A stretch of DNA of 64,000 bases from Pseudomonadota bacterium (lineage in GTDB: Bacteria; Pseudomonadota; Alphaproteobacteria; GCA-2746255). The notes under the pieces were generated by a model. That model had not been told where the DNA came from, ran no database searches, and worked only from the letters and a program-made list of their open reading frames with translations. How positions within the stretch are numbered: the first letter of the stretch is position 1; each line of letters starts with the position of its first letter. The stretch lies in NCBI GenBank assembly GCA_040752895.1, contig JBFMHN010000003.1:157501-221500 (forward strand), in the 5' to 3' direction. Both the position numbers and the translations under genes were made by a program. This document shows positions 41,866 to 55,958 of this stretch, in pieces.

Positions 41866-42138
41866 ATGGACGACGAGATCATCCGGGCCGCCAATGCGAA
41901 GAAGGGCAGTCCGTTTCTGAACACCGACCAGGCCGCCCACTATGTCGGCTTGTCGCGCCGGACGCTCGAAAAGATGCGCACGGCCGGCGGCGGTCCGCGC
42001 TTTCGCAAGCATGGCCGCTACGTCCGCTACCACATCGACGACCTCGACAAATGGTCGGCCGAGCACGGCAAGACCTCGACCTCGGAACCCGACCGTGAGC
42101 ATCCCGCCCGGCCTGAGAGTCGCGGGCCACGGCGATGA
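41866..42138 (+). CDS. Excisionase-like helix-turn-helix protein
   Basis: Protein of 90 residues. The central winged-helix (MerR/excisionase type) reads FLNTDQAAHYVGLSRRTLEKMRTAGGGPRFRKHGRYVRYHIDDLDKWS, with a charged, proline-rich tail. Proteins of this type regulate transfer genes or assist excision in ICEs. It overlaps the TraF-type gene by 4 nt (ATGA) and lies about 190 nt after DUF736. Confidence 0.85.
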   Translation: MDDEIIRAANAKKGSPFLNTDQAAHYVGLSRRTLEKMRTAGGGPRFRKHGRYVRYHIDDLDKWSAEHGKTSTSEPDREHPARPESRGPRR

Positions 42139-42698
42139 TCGAACGGTTTCTCACACGCGCGAAGCGGCGCCGGCGCGTGCGTAGGCGCCCGCGCACAGTC
42201 CTCGCCCTCACCTTGTTCGGGCTCGGCCTGATCGGTCTCGCGACGCTCGCCAATTCTGTGTTGTGGGCGCCGGCGCCGTGCCTGGTGTGGAACGCCAGCG
42301 CCAGCGCGCCCATCGGCTTCTATCGTGTCCTTCTGGGCGACGCTGTGCGCGGCGACCTGGTGCTCGTCCGCACACCGAAAGCCGTGCGACAGCTTGCAGC
42401 CGAACGGGGTTATCTCCCGTCGAACGTTCCGCTGGTGAAGCGCGTCGCGGCGCTCGACGGTGACGTCGTCTGCGCCGCCGGCGATGCGATCTCCATCAAT
42501 GGCCGCGTCGTCGCCGAGCGGCTGGCGCGCGACCGGCTCGGCCGCCCGCTGCCCGCCTGGACCGGCTGCCATCTTCTCGATGACGGCGAAGTCTTCCTGC
42601 TCATGGAGGGCGTCTCCGATTCCTTCGACGGCCGGTATTTCGGGCCAACACCGACTGCCGCGATCATAGGGAGGCTCGCTCCGCTATGGATCGAATGA
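42135..42698 (+). CDS. traF: TraF-type S26 signal peptidase
   Basis: Conjugation-specific peptidase of 187 residues. In IncP-type systems TraF processes and cyclises the TrbC pilin. A single membrane segment (TVLALTLFGLGLIGLATLANSVLWA) precedes the catalytic serine in WNASASAPIGFYRV and the lysine in NVPLVKRVAAL; the S26 end motif FDGRYFGPTP is also present. A TrbC pilin is encoded at 55635. It overlaps both neighbours by short stretches, so the HTH gene, traF and the transglycosylase gene are one unit. Confidence 0.92.
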   Translation: MIERFLTRAKRRRRVRRRPRTVLALTLFGLGLIGLATLANSVLWAPAPCLVWNASASAPIGFYRVLLGDAVRGDLVLVRTPKAVRQLAAERGYLPSNVPLVKRVAALDGDVVCAAGDAISINGRVVAERLARDRLGRPLPAWTGCHLLDDGEVFLLMEGVSDSFDGRYFGPTPTAAIIGRLAPLWIE

Positions 42699-43339
42699 TG
42701 CTCCTGATCCTCGGCGCATTGGCCATCGGACCCATCGCAAGCGCCACGCCTGCCAATGCCGAACCCGTCGCTGCGACCGATGCTGCGCTCGATCGCTGGC
42801 AGGGTTTCATCGCCGAGGCGTCTCGCCGGTTCGGCGTGCCCGAGGCCTGGATACGCGCGGTCCTGCAGGCCGAGAGCGGAGGCCGGTCAACGCTTAACGG
42901 CCGTCCGATCACCTCGCGCGCCGGGGCGATGGGCCTGATGCAGGTGATGCCCGACACCTATGAGGAGATGCGGCGCGCGCATGGTCTCGGCTCCGATCCG
43001 TATGACCCGCGCGACAATATCCTGGCAGGCACGGCCTATCTGCGCGCGATGTACGACCGTTATGGCTATCCCGGCTTGTTCGCTGCCTACAATGCTGGGC
43101 CGGAGCGATACGACGAGTATCTGCGCGATGGCCGGCCTCTGCCGATCGAGACGCGCGCCTATCTCGCCGCGATTGCGCAGATTGATCCAAGTCTGCCGTC
43201 GCCGCTTGCCGTGGCATCGGGAACGCGGCTGTTCTTCGCGCTGCGAACCACCGCCGATGCGCCGCCCGGCCGCGATGGGGTGGCGCCGTCGAGCGATCTG
43301 TTTGTCCCCCTGACCACCGTGCCGGATGGCCGGCGATGA
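42686..43339 (+). CDS. Lytic transglycosylase (VirB1-like)
   Basis: Protein of 217 residues with a signal peptide (MMLLILGALAIGPIASATPANA). The transglycosylase SLT domain has the catalytic glutamate in VLQAESGGRST, then GAMGLMQVMPDTYEEM, NILAGTAYLRAMYDRYG and LFAAYNAGP. It opens peptidoglycan for assembly of the mating channel. It starts inside the 3' end of traF (13-nt overlap). Confidence 0.93.
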   Translation: MDRMMLLILGALAIGPIASATPANAEPVAATDAALDRWQGFIAEASRRFGVPEAWIRAVLQAESGGRSTLNGRPITSRAGAMGLMQVMPDTYEEMRRAHGLGSDPYDPRDNILAGTAYLRAMYDRYGYPGLFAAYNAGPERYDEYLRDGRPLPIETRAYLAAIAQIDPSLPSPLAVASGTRLFFALRTTADAPPGRDGVAPSSDLFVPLTTVPDGRR

Positions 43340-43442
43340 GCGGCGCTGGTGCCATTGGAGCCCTCCCGGAGAGAGGGGCCTCGTCTCGGTATGCCTATCG
43401 TACCAGCCAGGACGAAACGCCCGTCAAGGATGCGCGGTCCCC

Positions 43443-43464
43443 CCAAAATGCTGGCGCATTTTGG
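43443..43464 (+). repeat. Inverted repeat in the leader of the gene at 43573
   Basis: CCAAAATGC (43443-43451) and GCATTTTGG (43456-43464) are exact inverted repeats across TGGC, in the 233-nt gap after the transglycosylase gene. They are flanked by C-rich runs. A role as transcript leader, terminator or binding site is possible. Confidence 0.45.
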
Positions 43465-43572
43465 CTCCCCCACGCCCCGCTGCGCGGCGCCTTCGGCGTC
43501 CTTGACCGGCGCTTCGCCGGCCGATGCCAGGGCCTGTCCTCGATGAGGAGGACATCAACCCTGGAGGTTCAG

Positions 43573-43935
43573 ATGACCACGCTTCACATCCATCCGCACG
43601 CCGCATTCGACCGTTTCCCAATGCTCGTCGAGAGCGTCAAAGAGCAGTTCGGCACCGAGGGACTCATGTCGAACGTCGAGCGTTTCATCGAAGCGGAACG
43701 CGCCGATTTCCATTGGGACGGGCGGCTCGCGGAGATGAATCTCGGCGCCTATGAGAGCCTCGACGACCAAGACGAAGCGTTCGAAACCGTCGCGATCATC
43801 GGCTATTTCCGCAGCCGCTATTACGTCGCGACCTGCGTCGTGGATGCCGAACGTCACGTCCGTTGGATGCTCCGGCTACGTCATTTCGAAAGCTTTGAGA
43901 GCGCCGAAAAGGCGTTTCTGGCGGGCGGTGATTGA
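43573..43935 (+). CDS. Conserved ICE protein of unknown function
   Basis: Protein of 120 residues from the ATG at 43573 (CTGGAGG upstream). It reads MTTLHIHPHAAFDRFPMLVESVKEQFGTEG...VERFIEAERADFHWDGRLAEMNLGAYESLDDQDEAFETVAIIGYFRSRYYVATCVVDAERHVRWMLRLRHFESFESAEKAFLAG. No domain was recognised. The upstream GC-rich 80 codons in frame look non-coding. It stands between the lytic transglycosylase and the oriT/relaxase region. Confidence 0.8.
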   Translation: MTTLHIHPHAAFDRFPMLVESVKEQFGTEGLMSNVERFIEAERADFHWDGRLAEMNLGAYESLDDQDEAFETVAIIGYFRSRYYVATCVVDAERHVRWMLRLRHFESFESAEKAFLAGGD

Positions 43936-44090
43936 CCCCGCCGATCGCTTCGGGAGCGGCGTCGTGACGGCGTCGCTCCCGTCACTTCAGACGACGAATC
44001 CACCTGGTGCATGGGCATCGTCTTGAGTCGAGGCCGGGCACGAGAGCGTAGGTGAGCGCAGGACGGACGGAGAGCAGATCGGAAGTCGCG

Positions 44091-44130
44091 TAAGGCAAGA
44101 TAAAAGGGCTGTCTCCACGAGACGCCCATG
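44091..44130 (-). other. oriT: Candidate origin of transfer (oriT)
   Basis: On the minus strand, an imperfect inverted repeat GGGC-GTCTC-GTG-GAGAC-A-GCCC (44127-44106) is followed directly by TTTTATCTTGCCTTAC. TATCTTGCC resembles the IncP/VirD2 nick consensus TATCCTGCC. It lies about 170 nt upstream of the relaxase gene, the usual place. The surrounding 43936-44296 gap holds no gene. The nick position would be about 44095/44096, by analogy only. Confidence 0.45.
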
Positions 44131-44296
44131 TCCTTGTCTGCACATCATTATTTATAGAGACGGGTGCTGTGCCCATGGAGACTGTTTCTTGTAACTCGTT
44201 GATTTACAGCATGGCGATGGAGACGCCTTGCGATCGACGCGAGAGCGTTGCTTCCTCGTGTTCGTGGACACCATGGATCGTCCGTGAGGCGTGGTC

Positions 44297-46285
44297 ATGA
44301 CGCAGGACGACGACTTCAAGCCGAAGCTTGGGAAGATACGGTCCCAGGGCAGCAAACGCGGGCGCAAGTATCTGCACCAGATACTGCAGGCGACCGCGCT
44401 GGCCGGCGGACGCGTGCGCGGCGGTTGGTCACCCCGTCGCAGCGCCTTCCACGGCAGCCAGATCGGTCGCGGCGCCAGCATTGGCCGCATGCTCGCCACG
44501 CGCGATCGTTATGCGTCGTTCCGGAGCCGCCGTGTCGTCGTCAAATCCCGCATTGTCAAGCTCGCCGGCAACGGCATCAAGGGCGCACGGGCGCATCTGC
44601 GGTATATCCAGCGCGATGGCGTGACCCGCGACGGCCACCCGGGCGAGCTCTATTCGGCCGAGCAGGATCGCGCTGACGGCAAGGCGTTCATCGAGCGCTC
44701 GACAGGCGACCGCCACCAGTTCCGCTTCATTGTCGCGCCCGAGGATGGCGCCGAATACGACGACCTGAGGCCGTTCGTCCGCCGCCTGATGACGCAGATG
44801 GAGGAGGACCTCGGCACAAGGCTCGAATGGGTCGCGGTCGATCACTACAACACCGGCCATCCGCACAGCCACATCATCCTCTGCGGCAAGGACGACCGGG
44901 GCCGGGACCTGGTCATTGCCCGCGAGTACATCACAAAGGGGCTGCGCGAGCGCGCCGCCGAACTGGTCACGCTGGACCTCGGGCCGCGCTCCGATCTGGA
45001 GATCGAGAACCGCCTGCGCAACGAAGTCGAACAGGAGCGGCTTACCAGTATCGACCGGCGCCTGCTGCGCGACCGGGATGGGGAAGGGCTGGTCTGGTCC
45101 ACCGACAGGGATGCGTTACAGCAAACCTTGCGGGCCGGCCGCCTGCAGAAACTGAAACATCTGGGACTGGCCGAGGCAGTGCGGCCGGGCCAGTGGCGTC
45201 TGGCGGACGACCTCGAGGAGACGCTCAAGCGCATGGGCGAGCGCGGCGACATCATCAAGACGATGCAGCGCGAGATGACAGCGAAAGCTCTGGTGCGTGC
45301 GGCCGCCGATTACGTGATCTTCGACCCGGCCGCGAAAGAGATCCGCCCGATCACGGGCCGGGTGGTCGCACGAGGTCTGTCCGACGAGATCAACGACCGT
45401 CATTACTTGATCGTCGACGCTCTCGACGGTCGCGCCCACTATGTCGACATCGGCAAGGGGGAAGGGACTGAGCCCACGCCCGAAGGCGCCATCGTGCGCA
45501 TCGAGCCGAAGCGCCCCGAGCCCCGGCAGGTCGATCGCACGGTGTCCGAAATCGCGGCTGCCAATGGTGGACGGTATGACGTCGATATCCACCTCCGTCA
45601 CGACCCGTCCGCCAACGCCGGTTTTGCAGAAACCCATGTGCGCCGGCTGGAGGCGATCCGCCGCGTCACCGGCGGCGTCGAGCGCGAGCCCGATGGAACC
45701 TGGGTGATCGCCCCCGACCATCTGGAGCGGGTGGCGGCGTTCGAGCGCCGCCAGGCACAGGCCTCGCCCGTGGTTGTGCGAACGCTGTCGTCGTTGCCGC
45801 TGGAACGTCAGGTCGGCGCCGATGGCGCGACTTGGCTCGACCGCGAGCTTGTCGCGGAGACTCCGGAACCCGTGCGCGACGAGGGCTTCGGGCGGGACGT
45901 GCGCGAGGCACAGTCGCGTCGACGGCAATGGTTGATCGCGGCAGGTCTGGCGCAGGAGGACCAGGACCGGATCGTCTATCGCGCCAACATGCTCGGCATC
46001 TTGCGTCGGTGCGAACTGAACCGCGCCGTCGGGCAGCTATCGGGCGAACTGGGGCTGAATTATGTCGAGACCAAGTCGGGAGAGAAGGTCGAAGGCATCT
46101 ATCGCCGGCACATCGATCTCGCCAGCGGCCGCTTCGCCGTCATCGAGAAAGCTCGCGAGTTCACGCTGGTGCCGTGGCGGCCCGTGCTGGAGCGCAATTT
46201 GGGCAAGCTGGTCTCCGGCATCGTGCGCGGCGACAGCATCTCCTGGACCATCGGGCGGCAGCGGAGCGGGCCGTCAGTGTCGTAG
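44297..46285 (+). CDS. traI: MOBP-type relaxase (TraI/VirD2-like, DUF3363)
   Basis: Relaxase of 662 residues that nicks oriT and pilots the strand. The N-terminal relaxase domain has RIVKLAGNGIKGARAHLRYIQRDGV, FRFIVAPEDGAEYDDLRPFVRRLM and the metal-binding HYNTGHPHSHIIL (His178, His180, His182). The rest is the long DUF3363 region. The ATG at 44297 is used; a GTG 6 nt upstream is also open. The 3' 180 nt are duplicated at 48163-48341. It is separated from traG by 5.9 kb of defence cargo; in related elements these genes are close together. Confidence 0.92.
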   Translation: MTQDDDFKPKLGKIRSQGSKRGRKYLHQILQATALAGGRVRGGWSPRRSAFHGSQIGRGASIGRMLATRDRYASFRSRRVVVKSRIVKLAGNGIKGARAHLRYIQRDGVTRDGHPGELYSAEQDRADGKAFIERSTGDRHQFRFIVAPEDGAEYDDLRPFVRRLMTQMEEDLGTRLEWVAVDHYNTGHPHSHIILCGKDDRGRDLVIAREYITKGLRERAAELVTLDLGPRSDLEIENRLRNEVEQERLTSIDRRLLRDRDGEGLVWSTDRDALQQTLRAGRLQKLKHLGLAEAVRPGQWRLADDLEETLKRMGERGDIIKTMQREMTAKALVRAAADYVIFDPAAKEIRPITGRVVARGLSDEINDRHYLIVDALDGRAHYVDIGKGEGTEPTPEGAIVRIEPKRPEPRQVDRTVSEIAAANGGRYDVDIHLRHDPSANAGFAETHVRRLEAIRRVTGGVEREPDGTWVIAPDHLERVAAFERRQAQASPVVVRTLSSLPLERQVGADGATWLDRELVAETPEPVRDEGFGRDVREAQSRRRQWLIAAGLAQEDQDRIVYRANMLGILRRCELNRAVGQLSGELGLNYVETKSGEKVEGIYRRHIDLASGRFAVIEKAREFTLVPWRPVLERNLGKLVSGIVRGDSISWTIGRQRSGPSVS

Positions 46286-46381
46286 AGCGCTGATTGGCCA
46301 CGAAACTCGCCCATAGAAGGACTGTTGGCTATACTCGCGCAAACGGAGGTCGTTTCTCAATACGAGCGCTGCAGGTCATAT

Positions 46382-48052
46382 ATGACCAAAAGTCGGTCTT
46401 TTTCGATTTACCTGCTCAAAGAGAGCTTCGACGCGTCGAGCGCCCTTGAGGACGATCATGCCCTGGCCTCGGATGTCGAAGCTGCTAACCTTCCCGAGGG
46501 CGCGTCGATCTTCATACTGGACGGCGAACCGCGAGCACCATGGTGGCGTTCTTATTTCGGGATCGGGATAAATTTGACTCAGGCTCACAAGGGCGCACTG
46601 GTCTTCCTGCCTCTCGGCACGCGCTGCTTCGCGCTTTCCTTTGGTCATGTCGCCCACAACCTGAAAGACGCCAGCTACGAGTATGACTTCGGCCTTCGCG
46701 TAACGCTGAACAGTCTCGATCCTCAGAAGCTGAAAAGTACGGATACTCTCGATCCCGGTGTCGCCAAACGGCAGCGCACACAACTGCCGATCGAATCCGA
46801 ACTGACATTCTTCGATTTCGACCGGGACAGCACGATTCTGCGTAGCCTTACCGGCAAAGTGAGGGAGGAACACAAGGATCTGTTTCGTCACGCAACCGGC
46901 AGCAGCAATCTGCGTATCAGCACCGATGTTGCCGCCGAGGGGCTTGAGGCACTTTGCACGGCGGTCCTTGCTCTCTATGAGAGCGAGGACTACAAGACGG
47001 CGTTTCCCGAAATTCAGAACATCGTTCCTGTTCGCGATCCTGGAGGGATCGCCGCTCTGAACGCCAATCTTCTTGTGGCCTTCCGGGAGCGGAACCCGGA
47101 CCTCAACATAACGGTCCCGGAGATCATCAATTATAGCGACAACCTTTACGTCATGTTCGTAGGGGCAGGTCGGAGCCTCATCTACGACGATGTCTATATC
47201 GGCCGGTACTATGAATACCTGGATACGAACGAGATCGACTTTGCGGCCATCGACATTGACACGTTGAAACGTCATAAGCTCTTGCTGACTGACGAGGACG
47301 GGAATGGCCGCGACCGTCACAGCATCTTCAAGAGCCTTGTCTTCGATACCACCCTGCCCGGAGTTGCTGGTGAAACCTACCACCTCTGCGAAGGAGGGTG
47401 GTATCGGATCGACAACGACTATATTGCCCGCTTGCAGACCTATCTCGATCCACTCTGCGCCGTGAATGACCTTCCGCCCTATGATCACGCCAGTGAAGGT
47501 GCTTACAATCAGGCGGTCGCCGCGGGTGATGCTGCCGTCATCTGCCTCGATAGAAAGGACATCAGTCCGGCCGGGCACACACAAGTGGAGCCGTGCGACC
47601 TGCTGGCATCGCGGGGTGACACAGCCGTCTTCTATCATGTGAAAGTCTCGACGCTGTCAGCGCAGCTGAGCCACCTGTTCAACCAGGGAGTCAACGCGGT
47701 CGAGTTGATACGGCTTGAGCCTCAGGCCATCGACCGGCTCGAGGCCCTTATCCGAGAGGCGCTAGTTGAGGGCGATCCGGACCCGCTTGTGGCATTGATC
47801 CGGAATCGGCACTACCGCATCGTCTTCGGCATTGTTACGCGCAAAGATCCGGCAGGCCGCTCGCTGAATCTGCCGCTATTCTCACGTATCAGCCTCATGC
47901 GCAGCATGAAAACGCTTCAGTTGATGGATGTGCCCGCCACGGTCATGTTCGTCACCGATCAGACAGCCACTGCGGAGGGCCGAAAGAAGAAGCGGAAGAA
48001 GAAGGCTGAGGTTGTCGCCGGGGAGGAAGTGCCAGCCGATGCTGCGGAGTGA
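46382..48052 (+). CDS. DUF6119 / TIGR04141 sporadically distributed protein
   Basis: Protein of 556 residues from the ATG at 46382 (GCAGGT 7 nt upstream; a TTG 57 nt earlier is less likely). The opening SFSIYLLKESFDASSALED and FGIGINLTQAHKGALVFLPLGTRCFALSFGHVAHNL, and the central FFDFDRDSTILRSLTGKV, match the TIGR04141/DUF6119 family. That family occurs sporadically in mobile and defence islands; its activity is unknown. A basic/acidic tail (AEGRKKKRKKKAEVVAGEE) ends the protein. It is alone on its segment, and the flanking relaxase-end duplication shows it was inserted here. Confidence 0.82.
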   Translation: MTKSRSFSIYLLKESFDASSALEDDHALASDVEAANLPEGASIFILDGEPRAPWWRSYFGIGINLTQAHKGALVFLPLGTRCFALSFGHVAHNLKDASYEYDFGLRVTLNSLDPQKLKSTDTLDPGVAKRQRTQLPIESELTFFDFDRDSTILRSLTGKVREEHKDLFRHATGSSNLRISTDVAAEGLEALCTAVLALYESEDYKTAFPEIQNIVPVRDPGGIAALNANLLVAFRERNPDLNITVPEIINYSDNLYVMFVGAGRSLIYDDVYIGRYYEYLDTNEIDFAAIDIDTLKRHKLLLTDEDGNGRDRHSIFKSLVFDTTLPGVAGETYHLCEGGWYRIDNDYIARLQTYLDPLCAVNDLPPYDHASEGAYNQAVAAGDAAVICLDRKDISPAGHTQVEPCDLLASRGDTAVFYHVKVSTLSAQLSHLFNQGVNAVELIRLEPQAIDRLEALIREALVEGDPDPLVALIRNRHYRIVFGIVTRKDPAGRSLNLPLFSRISLMRSMKTLQLMDVPATVMFVTDQTATAEGRKKKRKKKAEVVAGEEVPADAAE

Positions 48053-48162
48053 CCGAGGCCTTGATGTGTATGGTAAATTAGAGGAACTGGCGATTCGAGG
48101 TTGATCGAGCATCGACGATCAAAGGAACGAGGGGCGCTCAGGGACCGCCGAATATAGTTTGA

Positions 48163-48345
48163 CGGCTTCTACCGCCGGCACGTTGATCTAGCGAGTGGCC
48201 GGTTCGCCGTCATTGAGAAAGCCCGCGAGTTCACGCTGGCGCCGTGGCGGCCGGTGCTAGATCGCCATCTCGGCAAGCAGATCTCCGGCATCGCGCGGCG
48301 ACAGCATCTCCTGGACCATCGGGCGGCAGCGGAGCGGGCCATCGG
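48163..48345 (+). pseudogene. Duplicated 3' end of a relaxase gene
   Basis: This segment reads GFYRRHVDLASGRFAVIEKAREFTLAPWRPVLDRHLGKQISGIAR. It matches the relaxase end (IYRRHIDLASGRFAVIEKAREFTLVPWRPVLERNLGKLVSGIVR, 46094-46273) at DNA level with scattered differences and one missing base. It is diverged, so it derives from a related element's relaxase rather than a fresh duplication. Confidence 0.8.
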
Positions 48346-48376
48346 TGACCTAATTAGCAGTTGTTACGGCCATTAT

Positions 48377-48414
48377 GACCTGCTATCTTGTTGTTAACAA
48401 CAAGATAGCAGGTC
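48377..48414. promoter_or_regulatory. 38-bp perfect palindrome, likely operator
   Basis: GACCTGCTATCTTGTTGTT (48377-48395) is followed directly by its exact reverse complement (48396-48414), with the centre GTTAAC. It ends 4 nt before the GTG start of the HTH gene. Length, perfection and position suggest an autoregulatory operator; a transcript crossing it would also form a strong hairpin at the ribosome-binding site. Confidence 0.75.
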
Positions 48415-48418
48415 AGCG

Positions 48419-48907
48419 GTGGCAGTTCACTACACTCCCGGTCAACTCCGTGGTGCGATGACAATCCCACAGGAGACCTATCGTCATTGGAAGAAGGCCT
48501 TGGCTCCCCTGCGTCGGGGGACAGGGCATAGTCCCTGTTTTACAGCGGGCGATTTACTCAGCGTTGCAATCGTGCGTGTTCTGACCGTTGATCTCGCTGT
48601 CCGGGTCGGTGCACTTTCAGCTATTGCTGAAGCTCTCTTCGAAGCGTGCAACGCCACCTCCTGGCCAACTCTGGAACGTAGCAAGCTGATTGTCGATCTA
48701 GCGACTGGCCGCCTTCAAATCAGGCCAGAGCTTGAGAACGTCGTTTCCGAGACGCCCGTGATCACCATCCCCTTGCGGCCATTGGTGAGTCACCTGCGAG
48801 GTGCGCTTCTGACCGACGGCGAAGTCGATAACCAGGAGACACTCCGCTTTCCGCCAACCCCGCTACCCTCGAAGACCGAAGCGGTATCGACGGGAGGCCG
48901 ATCGTGA
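48419..48907 (+). CDS. MerR-like HTH regulator of the methyltransferase-PIN cassette
   Basis: Protein of 162 residues. The GTG at 48419 is preferred because it retains HYTPGQLRGAMTIPQETYRHWKKAL, a MerR-like helix-turn-helix opening. The middle (GHSPCFTAGDLLSVAIVRVLTVDLAVRVGALSAIAEALFEACN) is an all-helical dimerisation region. The start abuts the 38-bp palindrome, and the stop overlaps the methyltransferase start by 4 nt (GTGA). It is most simply a repressor of its own three-gene operon. Confidence 0.78.
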   Translation: MAVHYTPGQLRGAMTIPQETYRHWKKALAPLRRGTGHSPCFTAGDLLSVAIVRVLTVDLAVRVGALSAIAEALFEACNATSWPTLERSKLIVDLATGRLQIRPELENVVSETPVITIPLRPLVSHLRGALLTDGEVDNQETLRFPPTPLPSKTEAVSTGGRS

Positions 48908-51396
48908 ACGCCGTCGACATCATCGCCAAGGCCGCGCGATCCACGGGCTATCGGGACGAAGCGATCGTCCGCGACTATGCCTTCGTCGATGTTCTCGATC
49001 CGGCGGACACGACGCGAACAGTCTCGCTCGCCGCCTTTACACAAACGCCCCCGTCCTACCGGTCGGCCGCACTCGCTGCTGTTTCGGTGGGAGACGGCGA
49101 TACGCTGGAGTTGGTCAAGGTGCACCGCGCGCTCGGCGCGCCGCTGCTGTTTGTCATCGAAGGCGATCAGGTTTCGCTCTGGCAGGTTCGCGGTGATGCT
49201 CCGCCGCGCGTGCTTGAACGATTGCCGGTTAACGACCTACCGGCGTTGTTCGAGCGACATCGGGAAACCTGGCGCCCGGATGCTATTCACCGCGCGAAAT
49301 CGATCGGCGCCATCGACCGGAGCTACCAACTCGATTTTGTCGATCTCGGTTTGCTGCCTGCCATCGAGGGTGAAATCCATCTCAAACTCGACCGTCTTTT
49401 GGTTGACACGCTTACGGCTGCATCCGCCGCCCAACGCGGCAAGGCCCCCGAAACAAGGCTGCTGTTTCGCGTCGTATTTCGCTTGCTTGCCGCGAAGGTC
49501 TTGCAGGATCGCCAGCACCCCTATGCTCAAGGCTGGGACGCTGCCGATCTCGCCTCCGTTCTCCGTGCCATCGAATCTTACTATTCCCTGGCGTCCGTTC
49601 CGATCAGTAGCCGCCAGAAAGTGCCGCCTGCGTTTTCGGCCGCCTGGGAATGTTTGCGTGGCGGTATCAGCTTCGCCAATATTTCATCGGACGATCTAGC
49701 CTTCGTTTATGAGAATACCCTCGTTACCCCCGAAGCCCGGAAGCATTTTGGCACGCACAGCACACCGCGTCAGCTTGCCGAATATGCCGTCGCCCGATTG
49801 GAGCTTCATCGCTACAAGCCGAATGAACTAAGCGTCTATGAACCCTTCGCCGGCGCTGGCGCGTTTCTCGTTTCCGCCCTGCGGCATATGCGCGACTTGC
49901 TGCCGATCGATTGGAGCGACCAGCAGCGCCATGACTTTCTGGTCGGGCATCTCGCGGGCGACGAAATCGACCCCTTTGCCTGCGAGGTCGCGACGCTCTC
50001 CCTGATTCTGGCTGATTACCCGAATCAGAACGGCTGGCACATTGCCGAAGCTGACCTCTTCGAGGACGGGGTCCTGCAAGACCGCATCAAGGGGCGCAAT
50101 GTCGTCCTCTGCAATCCGCCTTTCGAAGCCTTTACCGCCAAGGAACGATCACGCTATCCGATCGCGAGCGAGTTTTACTCCAAACCCGTGGCGGTGCTGA
50201 ACGCTGCGCTTGATGTACATCCACTCGCGCTCGCCTTCGTCTTACCACGTCCCTTCATTTTGGACCGGCAATTCGCGGAACAACGGCGGAAGATCGAGAA
50301 GCTCTATGGCGATGTTGAACTAGTCGAATTGCCCGATCGCATCTTTGGCGCGTCCGTTATCGAATCGGCGCTCCTGATCGCTCGCGAGCCAAGGCCACCG
50401 GCTCCAGCCGTCATCAACTTGCGGTCGACCGAAGTGTCTGACCGTGATCGTGTCATTTTCCTGAAAACTGGGAAAACGACGACGGAACGCAATGTCGTGC
50501 GTGAGGTTGGCGATCCGCCCTCGGGAGAACTTTGGGTCCCGCCGTTGCAGGCAGTCTGGGATTATCTACAAGCGTCACCGCGACTGGAGCGTCACTTCAC
50601 TATCCATCGCGGGATTGAATGGAAGTCGGCGCAAGACTCGGCTTGGGGCACTCACCGTCGCGCTGGCTACAGACGGGGACTGCACACCGCCCGGGGGGCG
50701 CGACAGTTTATGTTGCCGAATCCAGTATGGCTGGACTGCCGGGGAGAAAGACTTCGAGCTAGGGCAATCGACTTGCCATGGGACCGTCCGAAGCTGGTTG
50801 TAAACGCGGGGCGCCTAAGCCGCGGACCATGGCGTATCGCGGCGATGCTCGACAAGGAAGGGCTGCTATGCTCGCAGCAATTCTTTGGACTGTGGCCGCA
50901 TGAGTCTTTTACTGACACGCAGCTTCTGACCTTCGCGGCGATTCTGAATGGGCCGGTTGCAAATGCTTTTCTCGCGGTCCATTCCCCCGCAAAGGGTATT
51001 CGAATCTCTGCCGTTGAGCAGAGTCCTGTTCCATCGGTGCTTCCATTTCATGTAGGGGAACTGGTGGCGGAGTATGTTCGGCAAATTACGGAGCCAAGAG
51101 CGTTAAATCCGGACGAGGAGCGACTGGAGGCGCTTCTTACGCAAATCGATGCAGCGGTGCTTGGTGCCTATGATCTGCCGCCACGACTGGAACGCCAGCT
51201 TCTGGAATATTTCAGTGGCGTTGATCGTCCTGTTGCGCATCCGTGGCGGCATTGGGACGTCAGCGACCCGACGCCCGGTTTGACACTGGCTGAGCGCGTG
51301 TCCAGGCGTTTTCATCCGCACGGCTCCTGGATTCAGAAAGTGTTCCAGCCATTGCCGAACGGGGAAGCCATGCTCCTGCGTACTTATGGAGCATGA
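48904..51396 (+). CDS. Large adenine-specific DNA methyltransferase (Eco57I/type IIG-like)
   Basis: Protein of 830 residues. The N-terminal ~280 residues may be nuclease-like or helical. The methyltransferase core has HSTPRQLAEYAV (start of the N6-MTase fold), SAM motif I YEPFAGAGAF (~313) and motif IV LCNPPFEAF (~403). The C-terminal half (LWVPPLQAVWDYL; HRGIEWKSAQD; LNGPVANAFLAVHSPAKGIRISAVEQSPVP) resembles the target-recognition part of single-chain enzymes. No clear PD-(D/E)xK was found at the N-terminus. The GTG start overlaps the HTH gene. With the PIN gene 6 nt downstream it forms a compact cassette. Confidence 0.82.
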   Translation: MNAVDIIAKAARSTGYRDEAIVRDYAFVDVLDPADTTRTVSLAAFTQTPPSYRSAALAAVSVGDGDTLELVKVHRALGAPLLFVIEGDQVSLWQVRGDAPPRVLERLPVNDLPALFERHRETWRPDAIHRAKSIGAIDRSYQLDFVDLGLLPAIEGEIHLKLDRLLVDTLTAASAAQRGKAPETRLLFRVVFRLLAAKVLQDRQHPYAQGWDAADLASVLRAIESYYSLASVPISSRQKVPPAFSAAWECLRGGISFANISSDDLAFVYENTLVTPEARKHFGTHSTPRQLAEYAVARLELHRYKPNELSVYEPFAGAGAFLVSALRHMRDLLPIDWSDQQRHDFLVGHLAGDEIDPFACEVATLSLILADYPNQNGWHIAEADLFEDGVLQDRIKGRNVVLCNPPFEAFTAKERSRYPIASEFYSKPVAVLNAALDVHPLALAFVLPRPFILDRQFAEQRRKIEKLYGDVELVELPDRIFGASVIESALLIAREPRPPAPAVINLRSTEVSDRDRVIFLKTGKTTTERNVVREVGDPPSGELWVPPLQAVWDYLQASPRLERHFTIHRGIEWKSAQDSAWGTHRRAGYRRGLHTARGARQFMLPNPVWLDCRGERLRARAIDLPWDRPKLVVNAGRLSRGPWRIAAMLDKEGLLCSQQFFGLWPHESFTDTQLLTFAAILNGPVANAFLAVHSPAKGIRISAVEQSPVPSVLPFHVGELVAEYVRQITEPRALNPDEERLEALLTQIDAAVLGAYDLPPRLERQLLEYFSGVDRPVAHPWRHWDVSDPTPGLTLAERVSRRFHPHGSWIQKVFQPLPNGEAMLLRTYGA

Positions 51397-51402
51397 TCGG
51401 CC

Positions 51403-51906
51403 GTGGACGGATACATTCTTGACACCTCCGTCTTATCGGCTCACCTCGACCCTTCACACCACTGGCACAGCGATGTGCGGGCGGCGATCGAGGCACTGGA
51501 TCAAGACTCGGCGCAGTTCGTCTCCGCGATGTCCTTGGCGGAACTCACCTTCGGTGTGCGGATGGCCGAGGCTTTCGGCGGAGCTTCTCTGCCGGCCCTT
51601 CAGCAGATGCTGATAGAGGCTCGTGCGTATGCAGTGCTGGACGTGACCCATCATACCTCGGCGGCTTATGCCGAACTGAAGACCAATCTCGCCAAGCGGT
51701 ATTTGGCCAAGGCGAGCCGTCGAGATCGGCCGCGCTGGCTGGAAGAATGGGTGGATAAGACAAGTGGACAGAAACTCCAGGTCGATGAGAACGACGTGTG
51801 GATGTGCGCGCAGGGGAAGGAGCGCGACCTCATTCTCGTCACGGCTGATGGTCGCATGAGGCGGATTGCTGATGCAGATCCCGAGATCCGGCTGCTCATC
51901 CTATGA
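51403..51906 (+). CDS. PIN-domain nuclease, third gene of the methyltransferase cassette
   Basis: Protein of 167 residues. PIN acidic residues are in YILDTSVLSAH (first Asp), FVSAMSLAELTFGVRM (Glu), and ENDVWMCAQGKERDLILVTADGRM (two further Asp). Such proteins cleave RNA, often as toxins. It starts with GTG 6 nt after the methyltransferase stop, so the two are co-translated. No separate antitoxin gene is seen; the HTH protein or the methyltransferase may restrain it. This is inference. Confidence 0.85.
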   Translation: MDGYILDTSVLSAHLDPSHHWHSDVRAAIEALDQDSAQFVSAMSLAELTFGVRMAEAFGGASLPALQQMLIEARAYAVLDVTHHTSAAYAELKTNLAKRYLAKASRRDRPRWLEEWVDKTSGQKLQVDENDVWMCAQGKERDLILVTADGRMRRIADADPEIRLLIL

Positions 51907-52125
51907 CACAGCAGCGACGAGTCGCTCGAAATTGGCATATTCATTGTCATTGGAATTGTGTTTCATTTCTGACGACCGGAGACTATCGACGATCGTTCGA
52001 TGTGGCCGGACGTTGTTGTTCATACCCTCTCTTACGATCTCCTTCATCCCCTCGCTTATGAGCGTAAGTAGTCGTAAATAAAGGCGATTTTCTCTTTTTA
52101 TCTTCTGCCTGAATTCTGTCTCCAT
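51901..52125 (-). CDS. Possible small AT-rich gene, convergent with the PIN gene
   Basis: An open frame of 74 residues (METEFRQKIKRENRLYLRLLTLISEGMKEIVREGMNNNVRPHRTIVDSLRSSEMKHNSNDNE...) in a lower-GC patch has protein-like composition. It ends 6 nt inside the PIN gene on the opposite strand. No family was recognised and there is no clear ribosome-binding site, so it may be chance. Confidence 0.3.
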   Translation of the reverse strand: METEFRQKIKRENRLYLRLLTLISEGMKEIVREGMNNNVRPHRTIVDSLRSSEMKHNSNDNEYANFERLVAAVS

Positions 52126-52163
52126 TCCCGAATGCGCTGTCCGCGTTCGGCGGGAGACAGCAA

Positions 52164-54203
52164 ATGACCCCGACCAAGCTCCTTATCGGCCCGATCCTGA
52201 TCGTTTTCGCGATCGTGATCGCGGGCGTCTGGGCGTCGACGCAATGGACCGCCGCCGAGCTTGGCTATCAGGCGCAATTGGGCACGCCCTGGTTTATGTT
52301 GACCGGACTCCCGGTCTATTACCCCTGGCGTTTGTTTGAATGGTGGTACGCCTATGAGGCCTACGCCCCGCGCATCTTCGACCGGGCGGGAATGCTGGCC
52401 GGCGCCAGCGGCTTCATGGGGTGCGCTGCGGCGGTTATCGGCTCGCTGTGGCGGGCACGCCAGAACCGGCTCGTCACCACCTACGGCTCGTCGCGTTGGG
52501 CGAACAAGCGCGAGATCGATGCGGCCGGACTCTTCCGGGCCGCCGGCGTTTTCCTCGGCCGCCTCGGCGGTCAGTATCTGCGCCATGACGGTCCCGAGCA
52601 TGTCATGGCCTTCGCGCCGACGCGCTCGGGCAAGGGCGTCGGCCTCGTCATTCCCACGCTTCTCTCCTGGACCGGGTCGGCGGTCGTTCATGACATCAAG
52701 GGCGAGAACTGGCAACTGACCGCCGGCTGGCGGTCACGTTTCTCGCACTGCCTGCTGTTCAATCCGACCGATCCGCGTTCGGCCCGCTACAACCCGCTTC
52801 TGGAAGTGCGCAAGGGATCGGACGAGGTTCGCGACGTCCAGAACATCGCCGACATTTTAGTCGACCCGGAAGGCGCGCTGGAACGCCGCAGCCACTGGGA
52901 GAAGACCAGCCACTCGCTGTTGGTCGGCGCCATCCTGCATGTGCTCTACGCCGAGGAAGAGAAGACACTCGCCCGCGTCGCTACCTTCCTCTCCGATCCG
53001 CAGCGCTCCTTCGCCCACACGTTGCGCCGGATGATGGCGACCAATCATCTCGGCACGCCGGATCATCCGCGGGTTCATCCTGTCGTCGCTTCGGCCGCGC
53101 GCGAGGTGCTGAACAAGTCCGAGAACGAACGCTCGGGCGTGCTCTCCACCGCCATGTCGTTTCTCGGCCTCTATCGCGATCCGACCGTGGCGGCGACGAC
53201 GGCGGCCTGCGACTGGCGCATCGTCGATCTGGTCGATGCGGCGCGGCCGGTCTCGCTCTATCTCGTCATTCCGCCGTCGGACATCTCGCGGACCAAACCG
53301 CTGGTGCGGCTGGTGTTGAACCAGATCGGCCGCAGGCTGACCGAGCGGCTGGAGGGCGATCCCGGCAAGCGCCGTAAGCACCAGCTCCTGATGATGCTGG
53401 ACGAGTTTCCCGCGCTCGGGCGGCTCGACTTTTTCGAGACCGCGCTCGCCTTCATGGCCGGCTATGGCATCCGCGCCTACCTGATCGCCCAATCCCTCAA
53501 TCAGATATCCAAAGCCTACGGCGAGAACAACGCCATCCTCGACAATTGCCATGTTCGCATCGCCTTCAGCAGCAATGACGAACGGACGGCGAAGCGGATT
53601 TCCGACGCGCTCGGCACGGCGACCGAGCTGCGTGCCCAGCGCAACTATGCTGGCCATCGTCTGGCGCCGTGGCTCTCCCACGTCATGGTCAGCCGGCAGG
53701 AGACCGCCCGCCCGCTGCTGACACCGGGCGAGGTGATGCAATTGCCGCCAGCCGACGAACTGGTGCTGGTCTCCGGCCTGGCGCCGATCCGGGCGAAGAA
53801 GCTCCGCTATTACGAAGACCGCAACTTTACATCGCGCGTGGCGGACGCACCGGTGCTGGCCGATGTCGTCTATCACGACAAGCCGGCGTCTCGGCCGGAT
53901 GACTGGAGCGGCCAGGTGCGCGGCCTTCATATCCGCCTCGCCGCCGTGGTCGATGAGGAAGGCGGCCTTGCCGAAGAAGAGGGCGGGCTCCAGCAGCAAC
54001 GCCATCCTGGTCTGCCGGAAGAGGGTGTCACCAAGCCAGCCGCCGCCGAGCACGAAACCGATCTTGGCCTGGCCGACGACGAATCCGACACGGCCGCCGA
54101 CAAGCGCGCCATGGATCGACTGCGTGGTCTCGGCTCGGTCGCGCGCGCCCACGCCATGAACGAGGGCACGGGTCGCGGCGACGACCTGCTGCCGTCCTTC
54201 TGA
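52164..54203 (+). CDS. traG: TraG/VirD4-type coupling protein
   Basis: Type IV coupling protein of 679 residues that brings the relaxase-DNA complex to the channel. Two N-terminal membrane segments (LLIGPILIVFAIVIAGVWAST; GMLAGASGFMGCAAAVIGSLW) precede GSSRWANKREIDAAG. Walker A is APTRSGKGVGLVIPTLL (~150) and Walker B MLDEFPALGRLDFFE (~410). A C-terminal acidic tail (EEGGLAEEEGG...) ends the protein. GGGAGACAGCAA gives its start. It begins the trb transfer operon. Confidence 0.95.
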   Translation: MTPTKLLIGPILIVFAIVIAGVWASTQWTAAELGYQAQLGTPWFMLTGLPVYYPWRLFEWWYAYEAYAPRIFDRAGMLAGASGFMGCAAAVIGSLWRARQNRLVTTYGSSRWANKREIDAAGLFRAAGVFLGRLGGQYLRHDGPEHVMAFAPTRSGKGVGLVIPTLLSWTGSAVVHDIKGENWQLTAGWRSRFSHCLLFNPTDPRSARYNPLLEVRKGSDEVRDVQNIADILVDPEGALERRSHWEKTSHSLLVGAILHVLYAEEEKTLARVATFLSDPQRSFAHTLRRMMATNHLGTPDHPRVHPVVASAAREVLNKSENERSGVLSTAMSFLGLYRDPTVAATTAACDWRIVDLVDAARPVSLYLVIPPSDISRTKPLVRLVLNQIGRRLTERLEGDPGKRRKHQLLMMLDEFPALGRLDFFETALAFMAGYGIRAYLIAQSLNQISKAYGENNAILDNCHVRIAFSSNDERTAKRISDALGTATELRAQRNYAGHRLAPWLSHVMVSRQETARPLLTPGEVMQLPPADELVLVSGLAPIRAKKLRYYEDRNFTSRVADAPVLADVVYHDKPASRPDDWSGQVRGLHIRLAAVVDEEGGLAEEEGGLQQQRHPGLPEEGVTKPAAAEHETDLGLADDESDTAADKRAMDRLRGLGSVARAHAMNEGTGRGDDLLPSF

Positions 54204-54214
54204 GGAGCCGCCCC

Positions 54215-54628
54215 ATGAAACGCTCCAAGATCCGCCATCAACTTTTCCTCGACGCCGATCTCAGCGAGAAGCTAGAGGCGCTGGCGGCGAAGCCCGGCGC
54301 GTCCAAGTCCGCCATCCTGGCCGATGCGGTGGCGGCGTGGCTCACCCGGCGCGGCTCGCAGGAACTCGACGACCGCTTCGGGCTCCGCCTCAATCGGATC
54401 AGCGCCCAGCTCAACCGCATCGAGCGCGACGGCCAAGTGCTGCTGGAGAGCCTGGCGCTGTTCGTCCGTTACCAGCTCACCGTCACGGCGCCGCTGCCCG
54501 AACCGGGTCAAGCGGCGCGCGCGGTCGGACGCGACCGCTTCCAAGCCTTCATCGACCAGGTCGGCCGGCAGATCGCCGGCGGCGGCCGCACCCTCGGCGG
54601 CAATACGGATGGAGAGGGAACGCCATGA
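54215..54628 (+). CDS. CopG-type ribbon-helix-helix protein
   Basis: Protein of 137 residues with an N-terminal ribbon-helix-helix (RSKIRHQLFLDADLSEKLEALAAKPGASKSAILADAVAAWLTRRG) and a helical C-terminal part. This gene is regularly placed between traG and trbB in alphaproteobacterial trb clusters. It probably regulates the operon or acts as an accessory oriT protein. It ends overlapping trbB by 4 nt (ATGA). Confidence 0.88.
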   Translation: MKRSKIRHQLFLDADLSEKLEALAAKPGASKSAILADAVAAWLTRRGSQELDDRFGLRLNRISAQLNRIERDGQVLLESLALFVRYQLTVTAPLPEPGQAARAVGRDRFQAFIDQVGRQIAGGGRTLGGNTDGEGTP

Positions 54629-55617
54629 GCAGTCTCTCTCATCCCGAAGCCCAGGGCCGCCGCCGCGCCATGCTGCGCACCGCCATGGGACCGGCGATCG
54701 CGGCGGCGCTCGCCGATCCCGCTGTCATCGAGGTGATGGTTAATCCGGACGGCAGCCTGCGGCTCGATCGTCTCGGTGAGGGACGGATCTACACCGGGGA
54801 ACGGCTCGAACCGGCCGAGGTCGAACGCATCATTCGTTTGGTTGCAAGCCACGTCCGAATGGAGGTGCATGCCGGCAATCCGGTGGTCAGCGCCGAGCTA
54901 CCGCCGCGCGATGACGGTATCAGCGGCGAACGTTTCGAAGGTTTGCTGCCGCCGGTCTCGACCGCACCCTGCTTCGCCATCCGCAAGCCGGCGGCCAGGG
55001 TCTACACCCTCGACGACTACATCGCCGATCGCATTCTGGCGCCGATCCAGGCAGACGCGCTGCGTAAGGCCGTTCGTGACCGCCGCAACCTGCTGATCGC
55101 CGGCGGCACCAGCTCGGGCAAGACGACGCTCGCCAACGCATTGCTTGCCGAGGTGGCACGCTTCGACGAGCGGGTGATCATCCTAGAGGACACGCGCGAA
55201 CTGCAATGCGCGGCGCCTGACTGCGTGGCGCTCCGCACCAAGCCGGGCGTGGTGAGCCTAGCCGATCTCGTCCGCTCGACGCTTCGCCTGCGTCCCGACC
55301 GCATCATCGTCGGCGAGGTCCGGGGCGCGGAAGCCCTCGACATGCTCAAAGCCTGGAACACCGGCCATCCGGGCGGCATCGCCACGGTGCATGCGAACTC
55401 CGCCCGATCCGCGCTCTACCGCCTCGAACAGCTTGTCCAGGAAAGCGTCGTCACCGTGCCGCGCCGCCTCATCGCCGAGGCGATCGACCTCGTCGTCTTC
55501 ATCCAGGGCCGGGGCCTGGCGCGCCGCATCGAGACCATCGCCGAGGTCACGGGCCTCGACGCGGACGGCGATTACGCCGTCACCGATCTCACCCCCCACC
55601 GGCTTCATGACCTCTGA
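54625..55617 (+). CDS. trbB: TrbB (VirB11-type ATPase)
   Basis: Hexameric traffic ATPase of 330 residues powering pilus assembly and transfer. Walker A is LLIAGGTSSGKTTLANALL (~160), the Asp box VIILEDTRELQC and Walker B LRPDRIIVGEVRGAEALDMLKAWNTGHPGGIATVHANS with the His box. The N-terminal domain (AALADPAVIEVMVNPDGSLRLDRLGEG) is intact. It overlaps the CopG-type gene upstream. Confidence 0.95.
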   Translation: MSSLSHPEAQGRRRAMLRTAMGPAIAAALADPAVIEVMVNPDGSLRLDRLGEGRIYTGERLEPAEVERIIRLVASHVRMEVHAGNPVVSAELPPRDDGISGERFEGLLPPVSTAPCFAIRKPAARVYTLDDYIADRILAPIQADALRKAVRDRRNLLIAGGTSSGKTTLANALLAEVARFDERVIILEDTRELQCAAPDCVALRTKPGVVSLADLVRSTLRLRPDRIIVGEVRGAEALDMLKAWNTGHPGGIATVHANSARSALYRLEQLVQESVVTVPRRLIAEAIDLVVFIQGRGLARRIETIAEVTGLDADGDYAVTDLTPHRLHDL

Positions 55618-55634
55618 CAGACGGGAGACCCAAC

Positions 55635-55958
55635 ATGCGTGCTCATCTTCGTTCGTTGCGAACGGCCGTCTCGGGCGCCGTGCTTTCGGTGGCCGTGACC
55701 GCGACGGCCCACGCCGCCGGCTCCAACATGCCCTGGGAGCAACCGCTTCAGCAGATCCTGGAATCCGTGCAAGGGCCGGTCGCCAAGATCGTGGCGGTGA
55801 TCATTATCATCGTCACCGGCCTGACGCTCGCCTTCGGCGAGACGTCGGGTGGCTTCCGCCGGCTGATTCAGATCGTCTTTGGGCTGTCGATCGCCTTCGC
55901 GGCGTCGAGCTTCTTCCTGTCCTTCTTCTCCTTCGGCGGCGGGGCGCTCGTGTCATGA
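55635..55958 (+). CDS. trbC: TrbC (VirB2-type pilin)
   Basis: Pilin precursor of 107 residues. A long signal peptide (LRTAVSGAVLSVAVTATAHA) is followed by two membrane segments, KIVAVIIIIVTGLTLAFGE and IVFGLSIAFAASSFFLSFFSFGG. It is the major subunit of the conjugative pilus and the likely substrate of TraF. GGGAGACCCAAC upstream is its ribosome-binding site; it overlaps trbD by 4 nt. Confidence 0.93.
   Translation: MRAHLRSLRTAVSGAVLSVAVTATAHAAGSNMPWEQPLQQILESVQGPVAKIVAVIIIIVTGLTLAFGETSGGFRRLIQIVFGLSIAFAASSFFLSFFSFGGGALVS

Follow-up and report, generated by a model that had tools for sequence, protein, structure and literature searches.

A DUF6119 gene between two versions of a relaxase 3' end: probable cargo exchange between related ICEs

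How did a single DUF6119 gene come to lie between two versions of the same relaxase 3' end, with the relaxase gene itself still whole? This question is raised by a locus in the window (the whole stretch of alphaproteobacterial DNA analysed here, 64,000 nucleotides in length; features in Table 1). Open reading frames and their homologues at 42135-55958 outline an ICE backbone of traF (42135), a transglycosylase gene (42686), rlxS, traG and trb, which is the traF-transglycosylase-relaxase-traG-trb order of an RlxS/ICEMlSym-type ICE, and the rlxS product, at 1079 bits with the NF041267 profile against a curated cut-off of 850, is a full-length RlxS relaxase. The original prediction, that the relaxase 3' end at 46094-46273 recurs in diverged form at 48163-48341 with the DUF6119 gene in between, holds on both points: the repeat extends a little further at either end (46086-46285 and 48156-48353), and one complete gene, the sole gene between the tails, starts 40 nt past the rlxS stop. 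The genome contains a single relaxase and a single orphan tail, both at the rlxS locus. The tail repeat was also considered as an oriT and ruled out, as the oriT of ICEMlSymR7A sits upstream of rlxS (PMC11963761).

Table 1. Coordinates of the relaxase, the two tails, the cargo genes and the right border of the slot in the window.
Feature	Position	Strand	Description	Support
rlxS	44291..46285	+	intact 664-aa RlxS/DUF3363 relaxase	NF041267 1079 bits; PF11843 E=7e-152
Tail copy 1	46086..46285	+	functional 3' end of rlxS, last 200 nt	alignment
61-nt tract	46212..46272	+	no substitutions between tails, apart from the 2-nt deletion of copy 2	
DUF6119/TIGR04141 gene	46325..48052	+	cargo, 57% GC	PF19614 E=2e-137, 460 bits; TIGR04141 448 bits
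DUF6119-to-tail 2 spacer	48053..48155	.	103 nt, 53% GC; putative illegitimate joint at its right edge	
Tail copy 2	48156..48353	+	scar; broken, frameshifted 3' end of a second rlxS, 66% GC	
Palindrome	48376..48415	.	perfect, 40 nt; probable operator of the HTH module	
HTH-like regulator	48419..48907	+	first gene of module	homologues in same three-gene order in L121, L122, L124
N6-adenine DNA methylase-like protein	48904..51396	+		PF02384 E=3e-10; homologues 60-61%
PIN-domain protein	51403..51906	+		PF01850 E=1e-11
traG	52164..54203	+	coupling protein, right border of cargo slot	NF010450 1161 bits

Gapped alignment of the two tails (46086-46284 and 48156-48352) yields 171 of 199 identical positions (86%, E=1e-56), and a chance origin of the repeat is excluded. 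The homologous stretch covers the relaxase gene from about codon 599 to the stop codon. It is interrupted by a single gap, 2 nt that are deleted in copy 2, and this shifts copy 2 out of frame. With 14% divergence between the copies, and with this architecture present in about 20 other assemblies, misassembly is an unlikely source of the repeat. The 27 differences are distributed 7/2/18 over codon positions 1/2/3, compared with means of 7.5/2.7/24.9 for a reference set of 329 functional tail pairs of similar divergence. On this test, which is of modest power, tail 2 was probably once the end of a working relaxase, in that two functional lineages explain the differences better than in-situ decay would, although the pattern (18/27 changes at third positions) is only weakly distinguishable from half-neutral decay in place. 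The GC content of tail 2 is at the level of the backbone (66-68% for traF, the transglycosylase gene, rlxS, traG and trbB), and it is flanked by AT-richer cargo, with DUF6119 on one side and the HTH, methylase and PIN genes (58-60%) on the other. One could instead suppose that the rlxS end was duplicated within one ICE, with DUF6119 then inserted and the second copy decaying, and it is true that the closest tail to each copy is the other copy, all remaining tails found being at most 78% alike. However, the differences lie mainly at third codon positions, as they do in functional pairs, and in the Mesorhizobium case described below tail 2 represents the original rlxS end of an ICE with Bil genes; we give this duplication very little credence.

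A parallel is found in Mesorhizobium ICEs, where a second rlxS tail lies 3.6-3.9 kb behind rlxS in about 20 loci belonging to one related group. As in the window, an intact rlxS is followed by cargo, an rlxS remnant and a second cargo; the two differ in the length of the remnant (119 versus 199 nt), in the cargo (IetAS versus DUF6119), and in that the Mesorhizobium pre-recombination state is preserved in relatives. The insert consists of IetA and IetS (E 8e-74 and 2e-26; L020) and the genes behind the tail are BilD and BilC (L026), so that the order reads rlxS-IetAS-last 119 nt of rlxS-Bil and then the rest of the ICE. Four relatives (L032, L042, L071 and L116) have these Bil genes straight behind rlxS, at a distance of 49-67 nt. 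Aligned with each other, the two states match collinearly at 87-90% for some 3.4 kb from a point 119 nt ahead of the rlxS stop, and the tail-2 edge is sharp at the LVPWRP codons (-119), with similarity absent to its left. This collinearity with the rlxS-Bil state, together with the sharp edge, indicates that the Mesorhizobium tail 2 is the native rlxS end, severed when another rlxS end arrived together with IetAS.

The architecture of the window, its two tail versions, the variable slot and two independent parallels, one of them with its pre-recombination state, lead us to a reading that we consider probable, where the "relaxase end plus cargo" of one ICE replaced that of another by homologous exchange combined with an illegitimate joint. 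For the window we infer the following order of events. Two ICEs with related, diverged rlxS genes would have shared one cell, the first carrying rlxS and then DUF6119, the second rlxS and then the palindrome-HTH-methylase-PIN module. The incoming block would have been joined on its left by homologous exchange in or upstream of rlxS, and on its right illegitimately, within the last ~200 nt of the recipient rlxS. The product would be a whole rlxS, new cargo, what is left of the recipient rlxS after truncation, and the cargo that the recipient already had. The relaxase-traG slot of this ICEMlSym/Tn4371-type ICE would in this way have been loaded twice, presumably with some benefit from the cargo. 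Later, the old rlxS end would have lost 2 nt and undergone a short exchange of sequence with the live copy. In general terms, cargo blocks would stack and old tails would stay as scars. In support of this, 23-40 nt separate the start of each cargo block from the relaxase stop that precedes it. The proposal that two related ICEs had recombined at the relaxase end was already part of the original prediction, and it now draws support from the functional-type tail differences and from the Mesorhizobium pre-state; its expectation of an unharmed relaxase is borne out by the intact gene, and since the relaxase is whole, transfer should be unharmed as well. Only short remnants may last, as longer direct repeats would be expected to recombine with loss of the cargo. 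Because neither the donor nor an earlier state of the window was found among ~450 different genomes and the 80 best loci from one collection scan, its illegitimate joint is placed by analogy with the parallels. Homology-facilitated illegitimate recombination, with one homologous anchor and one microhomology joint, is known from Acinetobacter transformation; here, by analogy, homology would be provided by the relaxase gene, and the recombining partners would be two ICEs.

Against a plain one-step replacement stands the 61-nt tract without substitutions, which is unexpected and needs a later conversion. It shows 0 substitutions where 8.7 are expected, and a substitution-free tract occurs in 0/329 similarly diverged functional pairs; an identical run of 48 nt is seen between the tails, and runs of at least 48 nt occur in 0/122 functional tail pairs. 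We read this tract as an exchange between copy 1 and copy 2. Lying between diverged flanks, it also resembles a crossover region, such as a Campbell-type single crossover in the shared tail would leave if a circle carrying DUF6119 and a relaxase tail had been taken up, in which case both tails would be hybrid. However, this requires a circle with just ~200 nt of relaxase plus DUF6119, a molecule of a kind that is not known, and in Mesorhizobium the tail-2 edge is sharp and its flank is collinear with the old state. We therefore regard a Campbell-type origin as unlikely.

The original prediction also advised looking for other cargo between the same repeats. Between relaxase tails of this kind lie IetAS, as described above, and the florfenicol-resistance gene floR2 of clinical SGI1-type resistance plasmids. 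In NZ_MZ475700.1 (L156 3764-5851), an SGI1-type region, floR2 is bracketed by two DUF3363 relaxase tails that are 88% alike over 103 nt, with tetR(G)-tet(G) behind the second tail. As in the window, the cargo thus lies between two diverged relaxase tails with a second cargo behind; unlike in the window, no intact relaxase is attached and the tails belong to a different DUF3363 subfamily. The tails suggest that floR2 was formerly the cargo of an ICE slot. Set against the intact floR-lysR unit, the junction of the truncated lysR with tail 2 falls at a shared 7-nt CCCTTGT, a microhomology at the non-homologous joint of this floR2 parallel. Counting the Mesorhizobium loci as one event, there are three independent bracketed cases including the window, with different cargo in each, and the remnant length in the window differs from that in the other two.

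The joints at L020 15843 and L156 5736, which are unrelated, share the same relaxase codon (the L of LVPWRP), and the joint of the window lies elsewhere. This coincidence in the Mesorhizobium and floR2 joints is not predicted by plain illegitimate joining. Many integrative elements target tRNA or housekeeping genes and supply their own copy of the gene end. An element that targeted the rlxS 3' end in this way would restore the relaxase frame and leave its cargo directly behind the stop, both of which are seen, and would also be in line with the shared codon in the two parallels. However, the 1.87-kb insert (46286-48155) contains DUF6119 alone and no integrase or transposase gene, there is no fixed att length or position (remnants of 199 nt in the window and 119 nt in Mesorhizobium), and the tails are 86-88% alike, which differs from an identical att core. 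Site-specific insertion is accordingly very unlikely in our view.

Relaxase tails of this type are widespread beside floR. A DUF3363 tail end stands just upstream of floR in over 2,200 plasmid records, and by sequence comparison the truncated "virD2" upstream of floR, as it is named in the floR literature (PMC7457074), is a DUF3363 relaxase 3' end; "floR, DUF3363, ISCR2" has been noted as a common combination (PMC13393415). Unlike the window, the virD2-floR-lysR/ISCR2 cluster is moved on by ISCR2, lies outside an ICE and usually has one tail. A broader reading, which we hold with less than even confidence, is that DUF3363 relaxase 3' ends are a general entry point for exchanging and stacking the cargo of conjugative elements, with orphan tails recording each event, and that floR, floR2-tet(G) and possibly blaAFM began as relaxase-adjacent ICE cargo. 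If so, the two joints at the LVPWRP codons would suggest that breaks occur preferentially at this point of the relaxase gene. The exchange proposed for the window would give ICEs a concrete, checkable route to collect defence and resistance genes with their own transfer intact, with an orphan relaxase tail as a sequence mark for counting past events, and it ties the "virD2" fragment beside floR, on thousands of plasmids, to the cargo slot of living ICEs. Two further orphan tails were observed. In NZ_CP073081.1 (L154 4964-5173), a DUF3363 relaxase tail lies ~400 nt upstream of blaAFM-2. Another tail (L193 7277-7471, codons 600-664) lies among metabolic genes, with a CoA-transferase operon on one side and a TetR gene on the other, in a 14-kb stretch from which a relaxase gene is absent.

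That the relaxase-traG gap is a cargo slot was put forward in the original prediction. The interval is indeed a variable cargo slot, and as such it was already published in 2009: Ryan et al. 2009 (PMC2789088) describe an insertion hotspot behind the relaxase gene for Tn4371-type ICEs, with variable cargo between a DUF3363-type relaxase and traG, as in the window. That paper invokes Tn5-mediated insertion. In the window the relaxase end is duplicated, and the element belongs to the RlxS subfamily (ICEMlSym type), unlike a Tn4371-family ICE. Among 36 loci having both borders, the relaxase-traG distance ranges from 24 nt to 10.5 kb with differing contents, and some slots are empty. Relaxase and traG are often adjacent in more distant DUF3363 elements (24-199 nt in seven loci), and the shortest gaps with RlxS-type relaxases are 206 and 303 nt (two loci). 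PADLOC matches among 92 representative slot proteins include Gabija A (2), Gabija B (2), IetA (2), LmuB-like proteins and several methyltransferases; other slot genes are metabolic or transport genes. Neither DUF6119 nor the HTH module occupies the slot in any of 80 related loci (the 80 best of one collection scan), so that, among the relatives found, the interval is not conserved with DUF6119, which would have refuted the original prediction. In one locus (L083 1582-5139), IetAS lies in the slot directly behind an RlxS-type relaxase in the opposite orientation, and owing to this reversed orientation it is probably an independent acquisition.

As for the DUF6119 gene itself, both family profiles score above cut-off across most of the length of the protein, which therefore belongs to DUF6119/TIGR04141. 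PADLOC models matched it with no family at E 0.01, no solved structural relative was found (best E 0.057), its single-sequence structure model is too poor to use (mean pLDDT 32), and it did not occur in the viral contigs searched. Relatives are present in seven genomes of a class-wide genome draw. Relatives adjoin type I R-M genes (twice), AAA/UvrD genes with Shedu and TIR genes, an ATPase and S8 peptidase pair, and a NACHT gene, and one further relative has no defence-type neighbours. Judging by these neighbourhoods, the defence role assumed for DUF6119 in the original prediction is likely, and it is perhaps antiviral. Its conserved D409...EPCD...HxK...SHxxxQG could be taken as PD-(D/E)XK-like, a reading that is no more than guesswork.

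The second cargo module behind tail 2 (HTH, N6-methylase, PIN) was absent from the original account of the interval. The regulator has no family match, and its HTH nature is a prediction; the methylase did not occur in the viral contigs searched. The HTH-methylase-PIN set is found with no relaxase alongside on an Agrobacterium plasmid (adjoining a Shedu gene, L121), on a Sinorhizobium plasmid, and in one further genome that came from the class-wide genome draw. The recurring trio could be a defence or toxin-antitoxin system that is not yet described. The palindrome in the window begins 23 nt after the relaxase stop of tail 2, and was considered as a component of the scar. This was rejected, as a core like ATCTTGTTG-N-CAACAAGAT also precedes, in other replicons, HTH homologues that have no relaxase beside them; the palindrome thus belongs to the HTH module, which is a separate unit, probably with its own operator.
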